DNA of 64,000 nt, from the NCBI GenBank assembly GCA_017480035.1, contig JAFVBJ010000002.1, positions 1 to 64,000 of the forward strand. The letters are read 5' to 3'. Made by a program: the position numbers and the translations under genes. Below, in pieces: positions 20,006-44,123 of the stretch. The first letter of the stretch is position 1. Each line of letters begins with the position of its first letter. The notes beneath the pieces were generated by a model. The model had not been told where the DNA came from, made no database searches, and worked only from the letters and a program-made list of their open reading frames with translations. Source of the stretch: Candidatus Saccharimonadota bacterium. GTDB lineage: Bacteria > Patescibacteriota > Saccharimonadia > Saccharimonadales > Saccharimonadaceae.

Positions 20006-20422
20006 ATGATCAAGATTGACGAGAAATTCCTTGACGAAGTGGGACTTTCTTCCATGCCAGAAGATAGAAAGGCAGATTTTATTGCGCAGACTCAAGAGGA
20101 GCTTGAGAATCGCGTGGGTGAGAGAATGAGCGAAGGGATGACAGTTGATCAGCTCCGTGAATTTGATGGAATTATGAATAATGACCGAAATACAATGATT
20201 CGTGTTCTGTCTCAAATTGGAGATTATCGTCAGGATGAATTGTACCAGAAATTATTGAAGCGACACGGTGTCTCGGAGGGAAATCTGGAAATTCTCGGTG
20301 AATATCTTTCGGTGAAATGGATTCAAATTAATCGTCCGGATTATGCGACAATTACAAAAAATGTAGCTTCCGAGCTAAAACAAGAGATTATTGAAGCAAG
20401 ACCAGCTATTCTTGGAATTTAG
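20006..20422 (+). CDS. DUF5663-like protein
   Basis: A 138-residue helical protein. The N-terminal half (IDEKFLDEVGLSSMPEDRK, then an 'ELENRVGERMSEG' helix and a 'QLREFDGIM' helix) resembles DUF5663, a domain frequent in CPR bacteria with unknown function. The C-terminal half has no match I recognise. The start has a strong Shine-Dalgarno sequence AGGAGG and a TATAAT 22 bases upstream, so it has a normal short leader. Family naming is from memory and should be verified. Confidence 0.65.
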   Translation: MIKIDEKFLDEVGLSSMPEDRKADFIAQTQEELENRVGERMSEGMTVDQLREFDGIMNNDRNTMIRVLSQIGDYRQDELYQKLLKRHGVSEGNLEILGEYLSVKWIQINRPDYATITKNVASELKQEIIEARPAILGI

Positions 20423-37027: not shown

Positions 37028-37150
37028 ATGAACATGTCGTTCGAATTTTATCAGAACGAAGCAGATTATATTTCAAAGCAAGAAATTTCGGCCGATGCAA
37101 AAGCAAAAATCGCTAAAAGATTAGGTCATCTTGTAACAATAATTAGCTAA
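37028..37150 (+). CDS. 40-residue small protein
   Basis: ATG frame with a good Shine-Dalgarno sequence (AGGAG, 37020-37024) coding a 40-residue protein. The first half is acidic and aromatic (MNMSFEFYQNEADYISKQ); the second half is basic and helical (KAKIAKRLGHL) and ends VTIIS. It sits between a canonical promoter with a very long leader and a terminator, so it forms a complete transcription unit. No family is recognised. The strong promoter suggests it is abundant. Confidence 0.6.
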   Translation: MNMSFEFYQNEADYISKQEISADAKAKIAKRLGHLVTIIS

Positions 37151-37177
37151 GACTAGCCAAAACAATAACCTTTTAAA

Positions 37178-37209
37178 CAAAAAACTGGACGAAAAAGCCC
37201 AGTTTTTTG
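37178..37209 (+). terminator. Terminator after the 40-residue ORF
   Basis: AAAAAACTGG/CCAGTTTTTT hairpin with a T-run. It separates the small ORF unit from the surface operon. Confidence 0.85.
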
Positions 37210-37229
37210 TCGGTTTCTAATAAAAAAGG

Positions 37230-37258
37230 TTGACAAATCATAGCATAAGCGGTAAACT
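37230..37258 (+). promoter_or_regulatory. Strong promoter P2 of the surface operon
   Basis: TTGACA (37230-37235), a 17-base spacer with GCATAAG, and TAAACT (37253-37258). The leader to the ATG at 37318 would be about 54 bases. Confidence 0.75.
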
Positions 37259-37317: not shown

Positions 37318-37710
37318 ATGACACAAGATAATACCAAACTAAAGGAGCTTTTGGAACGCGTCCAAAGCTTGCCGGAAGATGCAGAGCTTCCAGAAGATTT
37401 ATTAAATGATCTCGACCAGGGTCAGATTTTGCAGCTTTACGTTGTAAAAATGATGATGGATAAAGGTGTTGAAATAACGGATGGGGAGCGCGAAAAACTT
37501 GCTTCTGAACTTGAAGATGAAATCACAAAGCAACAAATTCTCGCGATGCCAGATTATCTTGTGAAAGAGTTGAACGAGAAACTCGACGCTGGTGCAGCTG
37601 ACGAAGAAATTGAAAAAGCTATCGATGAATCAGGAATTGATGTGGAGACAATTACTGAACAAACAATGACAGCCTTTCGTGAAAAATATCTTAATGGGGA
37701 GGAGAAATAA
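37318..37710 (+). CDS. Acidic helical protein, first gene of the surface operon
   Basis: A 130-residue acidic, fully helical protein with no membrane segment or cysteine. Helices with Leu/Glu patterns (residues 5-14, 30-50, 55-80 and 85-120) suggest a small cytoplasmic binding protein. It is two bases upstream of the 1205-residue protein gene and shares its strong promoter, so it may help or regulate that protein. No family is recognised with confidence. The Shine-Dalgarno sequence is weak (AAGAAAGG placed far from the ATG). Confidence 0.7.
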   Translation: MTQDNTKLKELLERVQSLPEDAELPEDLLNDLDQGQILQLYVVKMMMDKGVEITDGEREKLASELEDEITKQQILAMPDYLVKELNEKLDAGAADEEIEKAIDESGIDVETITEQTMTAFREKYLNGEEK

Positions 37711-37712
37711 TT

Positions 37713-40700
37713 ATGGAACGCGGAAATTTTGAAGCAGGACAACCGATTAATACGGACGACGCGATGAACGATATACCAAAAGATACCACCGATAAATTTG
37801 TCGAGGGAATCCAGAAGAAAATCGAAGACGGAGTCTATACGCAAGAAGAAGGCGACGCATTGATTGCGAAAACTGAGGCTCGTAGAGCTGAGAAAAATGA
37901 GGCTGAAGCGGCAGCAGCTCAGGCGGCAGAAGATGATGCAGCTTATAATGCATGGGCAAATATGACGCCAGAAGAAGCTGATGCTCATCACGATGCGATC
38001 GTGAATGATTTTGAGGGTGAGACTGTGCGTGAAGGTGATTTTGCAATGTTCCCACGTATGGCTGGTGAGTCAAACGAAGAATATGGTGCAAGACTTCGAA
38101 AAATGCACGAAGCAACTAAACAATTCCAAGAGGAAAATCCAGTTGCTGAAGAGCCGGCAGAGAAAAATGCGCTTGACGCATATAAAGATATGGTCGAGAA
38201 ACGCGTTGAATCTGGTGATTTGAAACGTGAAGATGCTGATGCGATGATTGCAAAACGTGCAGAAGATTATGGCAATATGCAAGAGCAAAAAGCTGAAGAA
38301 TCGCGCAATGAAGAGGCGATTAAGAATTTTAATGAAGCGCAAGAGCAATATAAAATGGAAATGGCGGAAAAAATCCGCAAAGAAGTGCCAGAAGCTCTTG
38401 AAATGCTCGAAAAACATCCAGAACTTAAAGCTGAGATGGTCGCAGCAGTAAAAAGGCTTGAGGAACTTGATGAGATTGCTAAAATCGAAAAAGATGCCGA
38501 TAAAGCAATTTCGGATGAGCTCATCGAACGCAACAAAACTTTCATGAAGGCAGTTGAAGCATTTAATGCAGCGGCTCGTGCAAACGAAGCGGCTCGTGCA
38601 AGAATGGCTGAGTTTGAGAAGAAAGGCAACGGCTCGGATGATGAATACAATGAGATTCTGGGTGAGATTCATAAAACCGAAGATGACATGAAGACAGCAG
38701 AAGCCGATAAGAATACTGCGGATAATGTATATAATACAGTTGAGTCAGCGATTCGCGAAGATGCGGAAAAACGCACTGGCGAAATAAAAGAACGCATGGA
38801 AGCACGCGAAGCTGAAATCGCGGAAAATCGCGAAAAATATAACGAAGAATTTATCAAAGCTCAAGAAGAATATCAGTCGGCGGAAGAAGCTAATAATGCG
38901 GCACGCGCAAAGATGACTGAGCTTGAACAAAGTGGCAAAGCGACAGATGAAGAACTCCAGGCCGCTGAAGATGAAATTCATGCTACCGAAAAAGCTATGG
39001 CTGATGCTCGCGCAAAAATGGATAGCTTGAAACAAGATCAGACCGAAGCTGATGAAGCTGACGGTGCTGGTGAAGATGTTGGTGCTAAAGAAACTGGTGA
39101 AGATGCTGACGCTGGTGCTGAAGATGAGAAGATGCCTGGTGGCGGTTTTGAAGCTGGCGAAACAGAAGATGAAGAATTCCAAAAATTCTTTGATAACTAT
39201 TTCAATGATGAGGATTTTCGCGCAGTCTTTACGCACGGTGGTGTATTCGATGAAGAAGCTTGCCGTGGAGCTATCACGAATATGTATAATGCGAAAAAGA
39301 TTCAGGATGAAGAAGAAGCGAAACGTGCTGCAGACGTCAAGCAAATGAAAGGCGAAGAAGGCGGAGAAGCTGATGATGTTGACGCTGGTGCTGAAGATGG
39401 CGAAAAAGATCCTGATGATGGATTTGAGAATGACGAGCAAAGAGGGCTTTTTGCGAAAATAAAAGGATTCTTTAATCGCAGCAAACGTGCAAAAGCTGGT
39501 GGCGAAAAAGCAGCAGAAAAAGCTGGACTTCGCGGTTGGAAAAAAGCAGTGTTTGCTACGATGCTTGGATTGCTCATAGGAACGCAAGCAGCAAACTTCA
39601 TTAATAGTGCTGGGTTTACGGGCGATAAAGTAGCGAATAGCACCGGAAGCGAAATAGAAGCAGAAACTGCATATGCAGCTGAAGTGGAAGATGCAGAAGG
39701 CGACAAAGTCGACTTGAAAGATGTTTCGGAAAATCTTTCGCTTGAAGTTGATTTGAACGCAGAAAAAGGCGAAGAACTTTCGGATTTGGTTGACACAACG
39801 TCTTATGGTGAAGATATTGAAGTCAATGTGTCTTATGGCGATTATAGTGGCGAGACGGAATTCCTTGACTACGAAAACAAACATGGTCGTCATAACCTCA
39901 CGAGAGAACTTTATGACATGGACAATGAAAGTTTGACTGATGTTCAGAAAGCGGAACAAATTGCAGAAGGACTTGCGAATGTGCTTGACGACTCAATCGA
40001 ACAAGGACAGTTTGCATCCATGGGTGGTGCTGATGTCCAAATCGATGGCAAGGCAGACGGAATCATGAATCTTAACGATATGAATGAGGTGCTTGATTTG
40101 TCGAGACAAGATGATGAATTTCGTATTGCGCTCGCAGATTATAGCAAGGAAATGCTCCGTGACCTTGTTGAAAATCACGACCTCCAAGTCGAACATCGCG
40201 CAAAAGGTTCGCTCCATCAATCGCTCTATGCATATGAATTACAACTCGAAGATGGTACGTCGGATATTAACTACGCAGTTGATAAAGATGGCGTGCGCGC
40301 ACAAGAAGATTTCGATGTGTTGCAATTTATGGATGAGAACGGTCAGAATGTGCTTGATAACAATGATATCGGCGGATACAAGTACAACTTCCTCAAGGCA
40401 GTCGGAATTATTCCGGAAAATGCTTCGGATGAAGATGCACAGGACATCATGTCGAAGATTCGTATCATTGGCTTCTCCGGTAAATGTGGACAGCTCATTT
40501 GGGAGAATATTACGCCAGATACAGGAAGTGAAGGAACCGGAAACGAAGGTACCGGAAATGAAGGTACTGGCGAAGAAGGCACGGGCACAGAAGATACTGG
40601 CGAAGAAGGAACTGGTACTGAAAATGAAGGTACAGGCGACGAAGGAACTGGAACCGAGAATGAAGGGACTGGCGATGAAGGAACTGGTACCGAAAACGAA

Positions 40701-41330
40701 GGTACTGGAACTGAAGGAACGGGAACTGAAGGTACCGGAACCGAGAATGAGACTGGCACCGAAGACGAAGGTACCGGAACCGAGAATGAAACCGGCGTCG
40801 AAACTGGTGTTGAGACAGGTGTTGAAACCGGCGTTGAGACGGGTGTTGAAACCGGTGAAGAAACTGGTGATGAATATGACGGCAAGACCGATATATTGCC
40901 AGGCGACGAAGATGATAATTGGGATCAAATTGACCAGCCAACTCAAGAAGAAACTGGATCAACTTCTGAGGCGGACAACACGCCAGTTGATGAAGGCGGA
41001 AACGGTTATGCAAATGACGAAACTCCTGGCTCGTCGTCAGGTCTCGCAGAAGATGACTTCTTGAACGGTGGCGACCAAGGCGGCGTAACTACGGACGCTG
41101 ATGGTGGCGGTTCAACAAATCCGGAAATTGAAGCAACTTATGATGGCGGTGATACAAGCGGATGGCAAGGTGAAACACCTAGTGAAGAACCTGGAACCCA
41201 AACAGTAGAGGAGCCATCAACCCAAGAAGAAGCTAATCAGGTGAATGATTCCGAATCTAATCAAGAATCGATGGGCGAGAACCAAGATTCTGGCGAAGGC
41301 GCGGCCGAAGCGATGGATAGATTAGGATAA
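37713..41330 (+). CDS. Large coiled-coil, single-pass membrane protein with Gly-Thr-Glu repeats
   Basis: A 1205-residue protein with no N-terminal signal peptide. Residues ~15-480 are acidic, helical and coiled-coil-like, with two internal duplications: a ~25-residue motif 'eKrveSGdl..eDADAmIAKr' twice and a ~55-residue helical unit twice (near 285 and 385). A basic stretch then leads into one membrane helix (about 605-628). The ~575 residues after it are probably outside: a beta-like domain, then low-complexity EGTG and ETGV repeats (about 935-1055), then a Gly/Asp/Glu-rich tail. No catalytic motif is seen. The Shine-Dalgarno sequence GAGGAG fixes the start. It may link cytoplasm to a surface structure. 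Confidence 0.75.
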   Translation: MERGNFEAGQPINTDDAMNDIPKDTTDKFVEGIQKKIEDGVYTQEEGDALIAKTEARRAEKNEAEAAAAQAAEDDAAYNAWANMTPEEADAHHDAIVNDFEGETVREGDFAMFPRMAGESNEEYGARLRKMHEATKQFQEENPVAEEPAEKNALDAYKDMVEKRVESGDLKREDADAMIAKRAEDYGNMQEQKAEESRNEEAIKNFNEAQEQYKMEMAEKIRKEVPEALEMLEKHPELKAEMVAAVKRLEELDEIAKIEKDADKAISDELIERNKTFMKAVEAFNAAARANEAARARMAEFEKKGNGSDDEYNEILGEIHKTEDDMKTAEADKNTADNVYNTVESAIREDAEKRTGEIKERMEAREAEIAENREKYNEEFIKAQEEYQSAEEANNAARAKMTELEQSGKATDEELQAAEDEIHATEKAMADARAKMDSLKQDQTEADEADGAGEDVGAKETGEDADAGAEDEKMPGGGFEAGETEDEEFQKFFDNYFNDEDFRAVFTHGGVFDEEACRGAITNMYNAKKIQDEEEAKRAADVKQMKGEEGGEADDVDAGAEDGEKDPDDGFENDEQRGLFAKIKGFFNRSKRAKAGGEKAAEKAGLRGWKKAVFATMLGLLIGTQAANFINSAGFTGDKVANSTGSEIEAETAYAAEVEDAEGDKVDLKDVSENLSLEVDLNAEKGEELSDLVDTTSYGEDIEVNVSYGDYSGETEFLDYENKHGRHNLTRELYDMDNESLTDVQKAEQIAEGLANVLDDSIEQGQFASMGGADVQIDGKADGIMNLNDMNEVLDLSRQDDEFRIALADYSKEMLRDLVENHDLQVEHRAKGSLHQSLYAYELQLEDGTSDINYAVDKDGVRAQEDFDVLQFMDENGQNVLDNNDIGGYKYNFLKAVGIIPENASDEDAQDIMSKIRIIGFSGKCGQLIWENITPDTGSEGTGNEGTGNEGTGEEGTGTEDTGEEGTGTENEGTGDEGTGTENEGTGDEGTGTENEGTGTEGTGTEGTGTENETGTEDEGTGTENETGVETGVETGVETGVETGVETGEETGDEYDGKTDILPGDEDDNWDQIDQPTQEETGSTSEADNTPVDEGGNGYANDETPGSSSGLAEDDFLNGGDQGGVTTDADGGGSTNPEIEATYDGGDTSGWQGETPSEEPGTQTVEEPSTQEEANQVNDSESNQESMGENQDSGEGAAEAMDRLG
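40525..40875 (+). repeat. Tandem short coding repeats (EGTG and ETGV)
   Basis: DNA repeats with a unit of 12-15 bases coding E-G-T-G-(T/N/D)-E and then E-T-G-V. The codons vary between units (GGT, GGA and GGC; ACT, ACC and ACG), which shows that protein sequence rather than DNA identity is kept. Length variation between strains is likely. Confidence 0.85.
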
Positions 41331-41389
41331 AAACGCGCAGGGGGAAACACAAACACGATCATTTAAAAGGGAAGAAAGGAGCCCTAAAA

Positions 41390-42679
41390 ATGAGAACAAA
41401 CACAAAAACTAAAACATGGGAAGCGATGCGCAAAACCGCACGTCGTATTCTCCCTGTGGCGGTTCTCTCGCTCGGTGCGGCACTCGGTGTTGTGCCGAAC
41501 GATGTAAGTGCTGCCTCGACAGCTTGGGGTCCGGAACGTCCAACGTTTACGTGGGCGGAACCGGCAGAGTATGTCACATTTAACTCAATCACCGACAACC
41601 CAAAAATTGGTGATGAGAGAAACTTCGTTCGTATCCGTAAAGCCGGAACGGATGACAAATATGTAGACAAGGTCACGCTTGAAGTTGGCCAAGAATACGA
41701 AGTGGGGATTTGGTTCCATAATAACGCAAAATCCAAACTTAATACTAAAGAATATAATGGCGTTGGGATTGCTGAAAATGTCCGTCTTCGCGTTGAGCAA
41801 CCGGAGAAAATCACTGGTGGTACTTCCGGAGTGATTAAAGGAATTATCTCCTCGACTAACTCTGACCCAGCTGAAGTTTGGGATGTAGCATACGCGTATT
41901 CTGAATCGACTGTTTTGACGCGATACGTTGCAAATTCAGCAAAAATCACTAGCCTCGGCACGATTGATGGTGAAATTCTTTCGAGCGAAGCAATGTTTGG
42001 CGAAAATGGTGCGAAACTTGGATATTGGAATGATCTTTGGGGTACGTTACCTGGTTGTAATGAATATTCCGGTTATGTCACTTATCGTTTTGTCGTCGAT
42101 CAAGCAGGATTCAATATTTCGAAAACTGTTTCGAAAGAAAATGACAACAACTATGTCGAAGAAATCACTGTAAAACCAGGTGATACGCTTGATTTCAAGA
42201 TTGATTATACTAACACTGGTACAATCAACCAAAAATCAATTATCGCTTATGACCACATGCCAAACGGTCTCACTTACGTTTCTGGCACGTCGTTCTTCAA
42301 AGCAAACTTCAACACTGAAGGAAATTTCGTTTCGGATAAATTGTTTGATGGCGGAATTAACCTTGGCGATTTTACGCCTGGTGATAATATGTCACTAACT
42401 TACAAAGTTGAAGTGGAAGATGATAAAACTATCTTCCCATGTGGTGATACGAAAGTTTATAACAATGCATCGATTGCAACTGCAAACGGTACAGGTTATG
42501 ATAAGGTAGCAATTACAGTTCATCGTGATTGTGAACCAGATGAACCAGAGGAACTTCCAGAAACTGGTCCAACCGAAATCATGCTTGCATTGATTGTTGT
42601 GACTGGGCTTGGTGTTGGTGTCGCATATTATGTTGCATCACGCAAACAAGTTGCGAAACTCACTAATTCGGCTAAATAA
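41390..42679 (+). CDS. Secreted DUF11-type surface protein with LPxTG-like tail
   Basis: A 429-residue secreted protein. Residues 1-40 are a signal peptide with a twin-basic start and a hydrophobic core ending AAS. A first domain of ~190 residues has no recognised family. Residues ~240-375 form a DUF11-type beta domain with its 'KPGDTLDFKIDYTNTG' and 'YDHMPNGLTYV' pattern. The C-terminus has LPETGP, a membrane helix and a short basic tail, as in sortase substrates. It follows the 1205-residue gene by 59 bases with a strong Shine-Dalgarno sequence (GAAAGGAG). It is probably an abundant surface protein. Confidence 0.85.
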   Translation: MRTNTKTKTWEAMRKTARRILPVAVLSLGAALGVVPNDVSAASTAWGPERPTFTWAEPAEYVTFNSITDNPKIGDERNFVRIRKAGTDDKYVDKVTLEVGQEYEVGIWFHNNAKSKLNTKEYNGVGIAENVRLRVEQPEKITGGTSGVIKGIISSTNSDPAEVWDVAYAYSESTVLTRYVANSAKITSLGTIDGEILSSEAMFGENGAKLGYWNDLWGTLPGCNEYSGYVTYRFVVDQAGFNISKTVSKENDNNYVEEITVKPGDTLDFKIDYTNTGTINQKSIIAYDHMPNGLTYVSGTSFFKANFNTEGNFVSDKLFDGGINLGDFTPGDNMSLTYKVEVEDDKTIFPCGDTKVYNNASIATANGTGYDKVAITVHRDCEPDEPEELPETGPTEIMLALIVVTGLGVGVAYYVASRKQVAKLTNSAK

Positions 42680-42712: not shown

Positions 42713-42802
42713 AAAGGCAAGTAATCTTAAGAATTTTATGAGGTGCGCTCGAGGGCGCTAGCCCAAGGTTACACCTCATAAAATTCAAGATTACTGCCTT
42801 TT
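42713..42802. repeat. Long hairpin after the LPxTG-like gene (rod F)
   Basis: A 90-base rod. AAAGGC, AGTAATCTT and GAATTTTATGAGGTG on the left pair exactly with CACCTCATAAAATTC, AAGATTACT and GCCTTT on the right, with two small bulges. The 26-base tip contains a GGGC/GCCC mini-stem. T-rich DNA follows, so it may act as the operon's terminator. Confidence 0.85.
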
Positions 42803-42845: not shown

Positions 42846-44123
42846 ATGGGTGGCAAAATCAACAGAGAATTGACACTAGTTGAAGGTCGCGAGCCGAATC
42901 AAAATATGGCGCGCGAACTTTTGCGGACGGCCGAAAAAATGGGCTGGAAAACTCGACATTTAAAAACGATTCCGAGTGATAAAATTGCAAAAAATGAACT
43001 GTCGGATTTGTTTTCGGATTTTGTGATTTGGCGAGGGCCGGTTGGTTTTAAAAATCAATATGAAATCGAGCGAACGGTTTATTATTTAAATACGACTGGG
43101 AAAGTGACGATTAATACGCATCCAGCGGGTGGTAGACTTTGTACATCGGATAAATATTTTCAGCATGGTTGTTTTGCGGCAGATGAAGTGGTGCGAGAGC
43201 ATATGCTGCCGATGTATTCTGCGATGTCGCGAGAAAATGTTGAGGCACTAATCAACGACGGATTTTTGAAATATCCATTCGTATTAAAACCAGATTTTGG
43301 TACGAGAGGCGAGGGAATTGTTCTCGTGCGCGAGAAAAATGATTTGGACAATTTTCAAGGTAATTTTGAACAATTTTCGGTTGAACCATATGTAAAATCA
43401 AAGTATGATTGGAGAGTTTTTGTACTTGGCGGTTCGGCGCTTGGCGCGATGAGAAAAGTGGGGGATGAAGAAAACGAAGGCGATTTTATGGCAAAATCTG
43501 GCGGAAAAAAGCGCTGGAAAGAGGAAAATCGTGAAATTTGTGAAGAAATTTATGATTTAGCTGTACGTGTGACGGCAGCATCGGGACTTGAATATGCAGG
43601 AGTAGATTTTATCCGAGATGATGATACAGGGAGATTTATTGTACTTGAGACGAATATTGCTGGCGGTTGGCAAAATGGATTTCTTGAAGCAACAGGCATT
43701 CATATCCCGACAAAATTAATGCAATGGCTGGAAGATAAGGCAGATTTGCTTGATGGAAAGCCGGTTCCTGAAGTAGTTTCAAAGTATGTTGAGACGCGAA
43801 AAGGATTTTTGTCACGTGACGGAAAAAAGAAATATAAGGAAATTCTCGCGTTTTCAAAGAAGATTTCGCGCGAGAGGGAGATTTGCAATTTTGATATTGA
43901 AGCGCGGGATATGCCGCTAATTCGAAAACTTTCGAGCGCATACGTATTAGTTCAGAATGAAGATTTGAGTGAAGTTGAAAGAATGAGAATTAGAATGCTT
44001 ATGGCTGAGGTCGAAAAGTATGAAATTTCGCGATACGGTAATTTTATTGGAAAAGATTCTGGTTCGCTTGAACAAAGTTTGGAAATGACGGCGTACTATC
44101 TTGCAATTTCTTCAAAGTTATGA
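42846..44123 (+). CDS. ATP-grasp ligase (RimK/glutathione synthetase-like)
   Basis: A 425-residue protein. The ATP-grasp fold spans about residues 95-285: lysine-containing FVLKPDFGTRGEGIVLV (near 147), the acidic strand FSVEPYVKSKYDWRVFVLGG, and the metal site YAGVDFIRDD...FIVLETNIAGGWQNG. These enzymes join an amino acid or peptide to a carboxylate using ATP. The C-terminal ~110 residues are helical and unassigned. TATAAT ends nine bases before the ATG, and GGGAGGGAG overlaps the gap. The substrate is unknown. Confidence 0.8.
   Translation: MGGKINRELTLVEGREPNQNMARELLRTAEKMGWKTRHLKTIPSDKIAKNELSDLFSDFVIWRGPVGFKNQYEIERTVYYLNTTGKVTINTHPAGGRLCTSDKYFQHGCFAADEVVREHMLPMYSAMSRENVEALINDGFLKYPFVLKPDFGTRGEGIVLVREKNDLDNFQGNFEQFSVEPYVKSKYDWRVFVLGGSALGAMRKVGDEENEGDFMAKSGGKKRWKEENREICEEIYDLAVRVTAASGLEYAGVDFIRDDDTGRFIVLETNIAGGWQNGFLEATGIHIPTKLMQWLEDKADLLDGKPVPEVVSKYVETRKGFLSRDGKKKYKEILAFSKKISREREICNFDIEARDMPLIRKLSSAYVLVQNEDLSEVERMRIRMLMAEVEKYEISRYGNFIGKDSGSLEQSLEMTAYYLAISSKL

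Follow-up and report, generated by a model that had tools for sequence, protein, structure and literature searches.

What three adjacent genes contribute to the surface of a bacterium that may live in contact with a host is the question raised by positions 37,318 to 42,679 of the DNA analysed here, a stretch of 64,000 nucleotides (nt) from a Candidatus Saccharimonadota bacterium (GenBank assembly GCA_017480035.1, contig JAFVBJ010000002.1, positions 1 to 64,000), which we refer to as the window. A sequence-only reading of this DNA had placed a surface operon here, encoding a small acidic protein, a very large membrane protein, and an LPxTG-like protein with a DUF11 domain; the three open reading frames (ORFs), P1, P2, and P3, are indeed present in those positions on the + strand. 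We find that they make up a real, conserved, and fast-diverging surface cassette, which is probably part of how the cells contact hosts. Our preferred reading, to which we assign a probability of about 0.5, is that the locus represents one copy of a variable Saccharibacterial surface-contact module, related to a second one linked to a VirB6-like gene. What the computations show directly is the order of the genes, their conservation and relative divergence, the domain structure, the paralogy, and the linkage to a VirB6-like gene. The genome that contains the window (G000; 772,806 bases in three contigs) was read in stretches, and the closest named records of the locus are metagenome-assembled genomes (MAGs) of Candidatus Saccharibacteria, with goat duodenum and roe deer rumen among their sources. 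The parts of the three proteins (lengths in amino acids, aa) are as follows.

37318..37710, +: P1, acidic cytoplasmic protein of a DUF5663-like family, 130 aa; its stop codon precedes the P2 start by 2 nt
37713..41330, +: P2, putative single-pass envelope protein (N-in/C-out), 1205 aa
37713..39545, +: P2 residues 1-611, predicted cytoplasmic part; acidic, Ala/Glu-rich, hardly alignable past the nearest relatives
38001..38126, +: P2 residues 97-138, motif GET..DF.MFPRMAGES.EEYGARL, found again close to the N-terminus in type-B P2s (see below)
39546..39602, +: P2 residues 612-630, marginal transmembrane or internal signal-anchor segment with a Lys/Arg-rich stretch on its N-terminal side
39708..40517, +: P2 residues 666-935, predicted extracytoplasmic domain, conserved, with the fold starting at about 686; G699, K723, and C925-G926-Q927 conserved
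40518..40892, +: P2 residues 936-1060, Gly/Thr/Glu tandem repeats with periods of 12, 15, 30, and 36 bp
40893..41327, +: P2 residues 1061-1205, acidic C-terminal tail, probably disordered judging by composition
41390..42679, +: P3, predicted exported wall protein, 429 aa
41519..42124, +: P3 residues 44-245, N-domain (WGPER...FNSI...GDERNFVRI), predicted beta-sandwich
42155..42481, +: P3 residues 256-364, DUF11 domain (Pfam PF01345)
42554..42568, +: P3 LPETG sorting motif, followed by a hydrophobic segment and a basic tail

A conserved cassette with a fast-diverging central gene

The arrangement ileS-[P1-P2-P3]-rplU recurs throughout the genus and, more patchily, across Saccharibacteria, very small bacteria that grow attached to other bacteria, bearing out the conservation that the sequence-only reading had proposed as a check. 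Same-genus genomes have ileS upstream, followed by P1 and a large ORF, and one of two cassette types then continues with P3 and rplU; the P3 of the cassette is predicted to be exported and carries the N-domain, usually a DUF11 domain, and an LPxTG-like tail. We also examined GTDB genomes, using the 60 P3 loci with enough upstream sequence among the 80 best matches to the window P3, which, being drawn in this way, are not a random sample. An ORF of at least 400 aa adjoins P3 in 43 of the 60, and 32 of these ORFs match the P2 outer-domain profile described below; P1 lies just upstream in 26, and rplU falls within 2.5 kb in 34/60. Across loci, the spacing between P1 and P2 is mostly -13 to +9 nt.

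The members of this arrangement diverge to very different extents. Compared with the three nearest relatives, the window shows identities of 81-84% for IleS, 90-100% for RplU, and 77-83% for P3, against 48-65% for P1 and 35-76% for the outer domain of P2, the cytoplasmic half of which aligns only partly. By these alignments, P2 diverges much faster than ileS and rplU or P3, and its family ranges in length from 525 to 1,722 aa. The comparison establishes unequal divergence.

Several loci illustrate the variety of P2-like proteins. In genome G003 (L061:446-8230), two tandem cassettes are arranged as P1-P2-P3-P1-P2, and the second P2 ends in a C-terminal tail similar to the one of the G001 P2 but differs from it elsewhere, which suggests tail exchange. 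A separate group of P1-P2 pairs, termed type-B (L097, L101, L104, L105, and others), is followed by an AMP-ligase-like protein of about 573 aa and has P2s of about 820-1400 aa; the outer-domain profile did not detect these P2s, and the type-B pairs were set aside. In G073, from another family, a P2-like protein following P1 (L085:654-4658) has a C-terminal part that looks glycosyltransferase-like by inspection.

P3 carries a putative sorting signal and P2 a predicted folded outer domain

The surface assignment draws first on P3. Its N-terminus is basic and then hydrophobic (by inspection and alignment), its DUF11 domain scores 35 bits against a cut-off of 24.6, and its LPETG motif (residues 389-393) is followed by a hydropathy peak at residue 397 (2.23) and a basic tail. 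The sorting-signal model TIGR01167 scores 12.0 on P3, under its cut-off of 15.9; an xPxTG motif lies close to the C-terminus in 92 of 106 P3s, and G000 contains three sortase (PF04203) matches over cut-off. These features suggest that P3 is anchored by sortase. DUF11 is missing from several P3 relatives. The N-domain is predicted as a mostly beta structure (predicted local distance difference test, pLDDT, 96.0), for which a Foldseek search gave nothing usable.

For P2, no Pfam or NCBIfam family reached its cut-off, including any cytoplasmic or housekeeping family of the sort that would speak against a surface role (the matches to DUF2680 and PRK00711 fell below cut-off). The earlier statement that P2 belongs to no known family thus holds for these databases, but relatives of P2 are numerous in the corresponding gene position: When an outer-domain profile was iterated from five distant members, it picked up the window P2 at E=1.9e-4 while that protein was not yet included, and its matches are nearly always the ORF beside P1 or P3. 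Structure prediction for the outer half, also proposed as a check, was carried out with AlphaFold on the outer-domain alignment and gave a folded domain of about 250 residues (approximately 686-935; pLDDT 86.3, predicted template modeling score, pTM, 0.84), in which the most conserved positions are G699, K723, C925, G926, and Q927. The low complexity previously ascribed to the whole outer half is therefore found in the repeats at about 936-1060 and not in the domain that precedes them. Fold searches with this domain returned neither a PDB chain at E<=0.001 or Z>=2 nor a match in the viral library BFVD, an absence that does not prove a new fold. Taken with the LPETG motif, the three sortase genes, and relatives named Candidatus Saccharibacteria, a folded domain past the membrane segment supports a surface or envelope operon in a Saccharibacterium.

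A second P3 lies beside a VirB6/TrbL-like gene

G000 encodes a second P3 on contig 3 (about 295.3-296.7 kb). Upstream of it lies a 549-aa protein that has a membrane segment at its N-terminus and a tail rich in Pro and Thr; downstream come a 333-aa membrane protein and then a 1139-aa polytopic protein. A second P3 stands beside a VirB6/TrbL-like gene in six genomes (G000, G045, G047, G307, G383, and G026), and the polytopic proteins of the other genomes are 34-45% identical to that of G000. Two of the six VirB6-like family members match TrbL/VirB6 (PF04610; best 1.6e-11), and their alignment had no PDB sequence match. The protein upstream of the second P3 matches the P2 outer-domain profile in G045 and G383, and the motif at P2 residues 97-138 is also present in the C-terminal tail of one VirB6/TrbL-like protein (G026). 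The occurrence of a P2-P3 pair beside such a gene suggests that the module may descend from, or work with, a secretion-type contact apparatus.

The same linkage could be read more narrowly, with P2 and P3 assembling, gating, or bracing a VirB6/TrbL-type apparatus and binding no host themselves. The paralogous P3, with its profile-positive P2 domain in two genomes, and the motif common to the N-terminal part of P2 and the VirB6-like tail would both fit such a machine part. However, the window copy adjoins no secretion gene, and divergence as rapid as that of P2 would be unusual in a core component, and we consider this explanation unlikely.

Relatives of the P3 N-domain occur in other bacteria

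The N-domain of P3 also occurs outside Saccharibacteria. The isolate [Eubacterium] cellulosolvens LD2006 encodes a tandem pair of N-domain-only proteins with export-type N-termini (L137:5652-7320), one of them 66% identical to the VirB6-linked P3 of G000 and the other 69% identical to the window P3. Two Lachnospiraceae MAGs (L110:3840-5753 and L113:7119-9008) have the N-domain and DUF11 fused behind a metallo-beta-lactamase-like domain, at about 60% identity to the window P3 and with no evident export signal; 5 of 299 Lachnospiraceae genomes gave an N-domain match. Three actinobacterial plasmids encode short membrane-anchored N-domain proteins of about 30% identity, one of them amid conjugation genes. 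The conserved N-domain of these stand-alone relatives has no Pfam match, and PADLOC found no defence match for P1, P2, P3, or three N-domain-only proteins. The P2 domain was not found in three Lachnospiraceae genomes and three actinobacterial plasmids, in a search that had no positive control. In a quick tree, with SH-aLRT (a Shimodaira-Hasegawa-like approximate likelihood ratio test) as its only support, the three Lachnospiraceae rows that resemble the window P3 share a clade with the window and its nearest relatives (SH-aLRT 96); certain inner forks lack resolution, and one additional row has a very long branch. Transfer of the N-domain between lineages, in either direction, is a reasonable inference from these data.

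One could go further and suppose that the N-domain is an epibiont contact factor, that would-be hosts are shielded by the N-domain-only copies (membrane- or lipoprotein-anchored) of Lachnospiraceae and actinobacterial plasmids, which would act as decoys or exclusion factors, and that E. cellulosolvens acquired the N-domains of both paralogues from a relative of this lineage. We regard this as a doubtful, speculative extension, though an attractive lead; if it were true, Lachnospiraceae would be hosts or neighbours of these gut Saccharibacteria. A literature search found no paper joining Saccharibacteria, Lachnospiraceae, rumen, and episymbiont.

These relatives also bear on a different account of the cassette, namely that it forms a defensive or decorative coat, a variable surface layer that diverges in response to phages, competitors, or other surfaces and not to the bacterial host. 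Fast divergence of P2, its low-complexity acidic repeats, and the sorting signal of P3 would all be expected of such a coat. The Lachnospiraceae N-domains nested with this lineage point instead, if only indirectly, to interaction with other bacteria, and we judge the coat somewhat less likely again than a role as secretion-machine part.

The inner half of P2 and its partner P1

As previously noted, P2 shows no N-terminal signal peptide by inspection. The Lys/Arg-rich N-terminal side of segment 612-630 is consistent with an N-in/C-out orientation, and the upstream flank of the membrane segment is the more positive one in 39 of 49 P2 relatives (in about ten long relatives, the segment scan chose a different segment). 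The coiled coil that had been claimed for the cytoplasmic half is reduced to a heptad periodicity that is weakly significant at about residues 300-445 only (2-4% of shuffles reach it) and not significant elsewhere in that half.

P1 fits its earlier description as a small acidic protein, with 27% Asp/Glu against 11% Lys/Arg, and has homologues in most same-genus genomes and in some of other families. DUF5663 (PF18908) is matched by 14 of 24 aligned family members (E<=0.1; best E 1.8e-7), and P1 is likely to be distantly related to it; the window P1 itself had no DUF5663 match above the curated cut-off in a Pfam scan. Matches of P1 to RNase HII and GRASP_w_spasm were weak and below cut-off, and the literature search found no paper naming DUF5663. 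Elsewhere in the window, a 138-aa ORF (20006-20422, +), 3' of SUF-type genes, matches the P1 profile weakly (2.3e-4), and similar weak single matches occur in other families of the order.

A single-pass layout with a folded outer domain, a large cytoplasmic part, and a conserved neighbor in P1 would also suit a contact sensor, in which the outer domain senses the host and the cytoplasmic half relays the signal inward with P1. Yet that half contains no signalling domain in Pfam or NCBIfam and is the least conserved part of P2, and a sensor seems to us improbable, more so than either explanation above. We give almost no credence to P2 as an internally processed lipoprotein, its hydrophobic segment being a signal cleaved by signal peptidase II: Lipobox-like motifs (LAGC, LVSC, LAAC, LSGC) follow that segment in about 10 of 61 P2 proteins, but the window P2 has no lipobox, and the peptidase LspA (PF01252) was found in 0 of 72 related genomes (10 of 14 controls positive), which refutes the canonical form and would leave the idea in need of a lipoprotein peptidase of an unknown kind.

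A proposed surface-contact module

The reading of the locus as a surface-contact module can be set out as a sequence of putative steps, in which we infer the topology of P2, its binding by P1, the anchoring of P3, the contact with a host, and the tie to a secretion apparatus. P1 and P2 would be produced together, their genes being adjacent and probably coupled in translation, and P1 would bind or chaperone the cytoplasmic half of P2. P2 would cross the membrane once, N-terminus inside and C-terminus outside, displaying its folded outer domain, with the long acidic disordered stretch after this domain reaching through or past the wall. P3 would be exported and attached by sortase near P2, presenting its conserved beta-sandwich N-domain and DUF11. 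The P2-P3 pair might then meet a host or another neighbouring cell, with P2 supplying lineage-specific variation and P3 the conserved part.

Several findings weigh against this reading. Neither Pfam nor NCBIfam reveals a known adhesin domain in P2, and the segment taken as its single membrane helix is marginal (mean hydropathy 1.58). Structural matches of the P3 N-domain have low Z (at most 5.9) and are mostly to Gram-positive adhesins and pilins, integrins, and adaptins; given that the pilin rows are this weak and that P1-P3 match no pilin family in Pfam or NCBIfam, the pilus-like structure once suggested for the locus finds no support. Relaxed constraint, phages, or competitors could also account for the fast divergence of P2. 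As for the secretion tie, no secretion gene lies near the window locus, four of the six VirB6-like family members (that of G000 included) gave no TrbL match, and the VirB6-linked P2-like neighbour in G000 had no significant outer-domain profile match. Because no virB4 homologue was seen beside the VirB6-like gene in G000 (about 34 kb examined), we describe the second P3 as VirB6-linked and not as part of a type IV secretion system (T4SS) operon. The host attachment raised by the sequence-only reading remains plausible in view of the fast divergence of P2, the P3 paralogue beside a VirB6/TrbL-like protein, and the N-domains in other bacteria.

Like the PrgB-type contact adhesins that Gram-positive conjugation systems anchor in the wall (pCF10), P3 appears to be an exported, LPxTG-anchored protein with a plausible role in cell-cell contact, and its paralogue adjoins a VirB6/TrbL-like gene; the window copy differs in lying outside any secretion gene cluster. 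By sequence, neither P2 nor P3 matches the PrgB/antigen I-II (GbpC) polymer adhesin domain in Pfam or NCBIfam at E<=1, and we know of no counterpart of P1 and P2 in PrgB-type systems. P3 resembles DUF11/LPxTG surface proteins (PF01345) in its DUF11 domain and LPETG-like C-terminus, with the difference that the conserved N-domain is the part kept in other bacteria. The giant membrane proteins of Vampirococcus (PMC8080830), compared here by description only, are likewise large, located in the envelope, and proposed to act in attachment to hosts, and some contain DUF11; they are described by known interaction domains, which P2 lacks. LPxTG wall-anchored adhesins often serve Gram-positive T4SS and conjugation systems (PMC12857230), whereas Patescibacteria yielded no PrgB-like adhesin (PMC12102498). 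For growth on its host, S. epibionticum requires type IV pili and a T4SS, and adhesin-like proteins are also listed (PMC10633639); N. lyticus uses two type IV pili, with further close-range adhesins proposed (PMC12206443). A partial literature search found no paper describing the cassette.

Transcription signals and neighbouring genes

Three candidate signals surround the cassette.

37177..37210, +: terminator-like hairpin 5' of the cassette, between an upstream 38-aa ORF and P1; 12-bp perfect stem, T-run, folding z -4.6
37230..37258, +: sigma-70-type promoter-like site, TTGACA-17-TAAACT (10/12), conserved in 4 genomes
42731..42786, +: terminator-like hairpin at the end of the unit; perfect stem of 15 bp, then a T-rich run, folding z -4.8

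Strong z-score hairpins thus stand on both sides of P1-P2-P3, and the three genes therefore probably form one transcript. In the promoter-like site, as aligned in the 4 genomes, the -35 TTGACA never varies, and the -10 reads TAAACT (4/6) in the window and a better TAAAAT or TAGAAT in the three relatives; a promoter had been predicted here, and it is the word "strong" that overstates the case.

Directly 5' of the leading hairpin, the 38-aa ORF MSFEFYQNEADYISKQEISADAKAKIAKRLGHLVTIIS (37034-37150, +) is 82-84% identical in the loci of the three nearest relatives and 75% (over 32 aa) and 63% identical in two others. Between the cassette and rplU sits a RimK-type ATP-grasp ligase (42846-44123, +), which only some related loci have; at only 51-73% identity between the window and its nearest relatives, it therefore also diverges faster than ileS and rplU.

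Implications

Beyond type IV pili, little is known of the surface proteins that Saccharibacteria use to recognise and hold their hosts. A conserved ileS-rplU slot with a fast-diverging, confidently predicted, and unmatched fold, together with a VirB6-linked paralogue, offers concrete targets in genetically tractable strains, and the N-domain-only relatives provide a lead, based on sequence, to the identity of hosts and possibly to their resistance.

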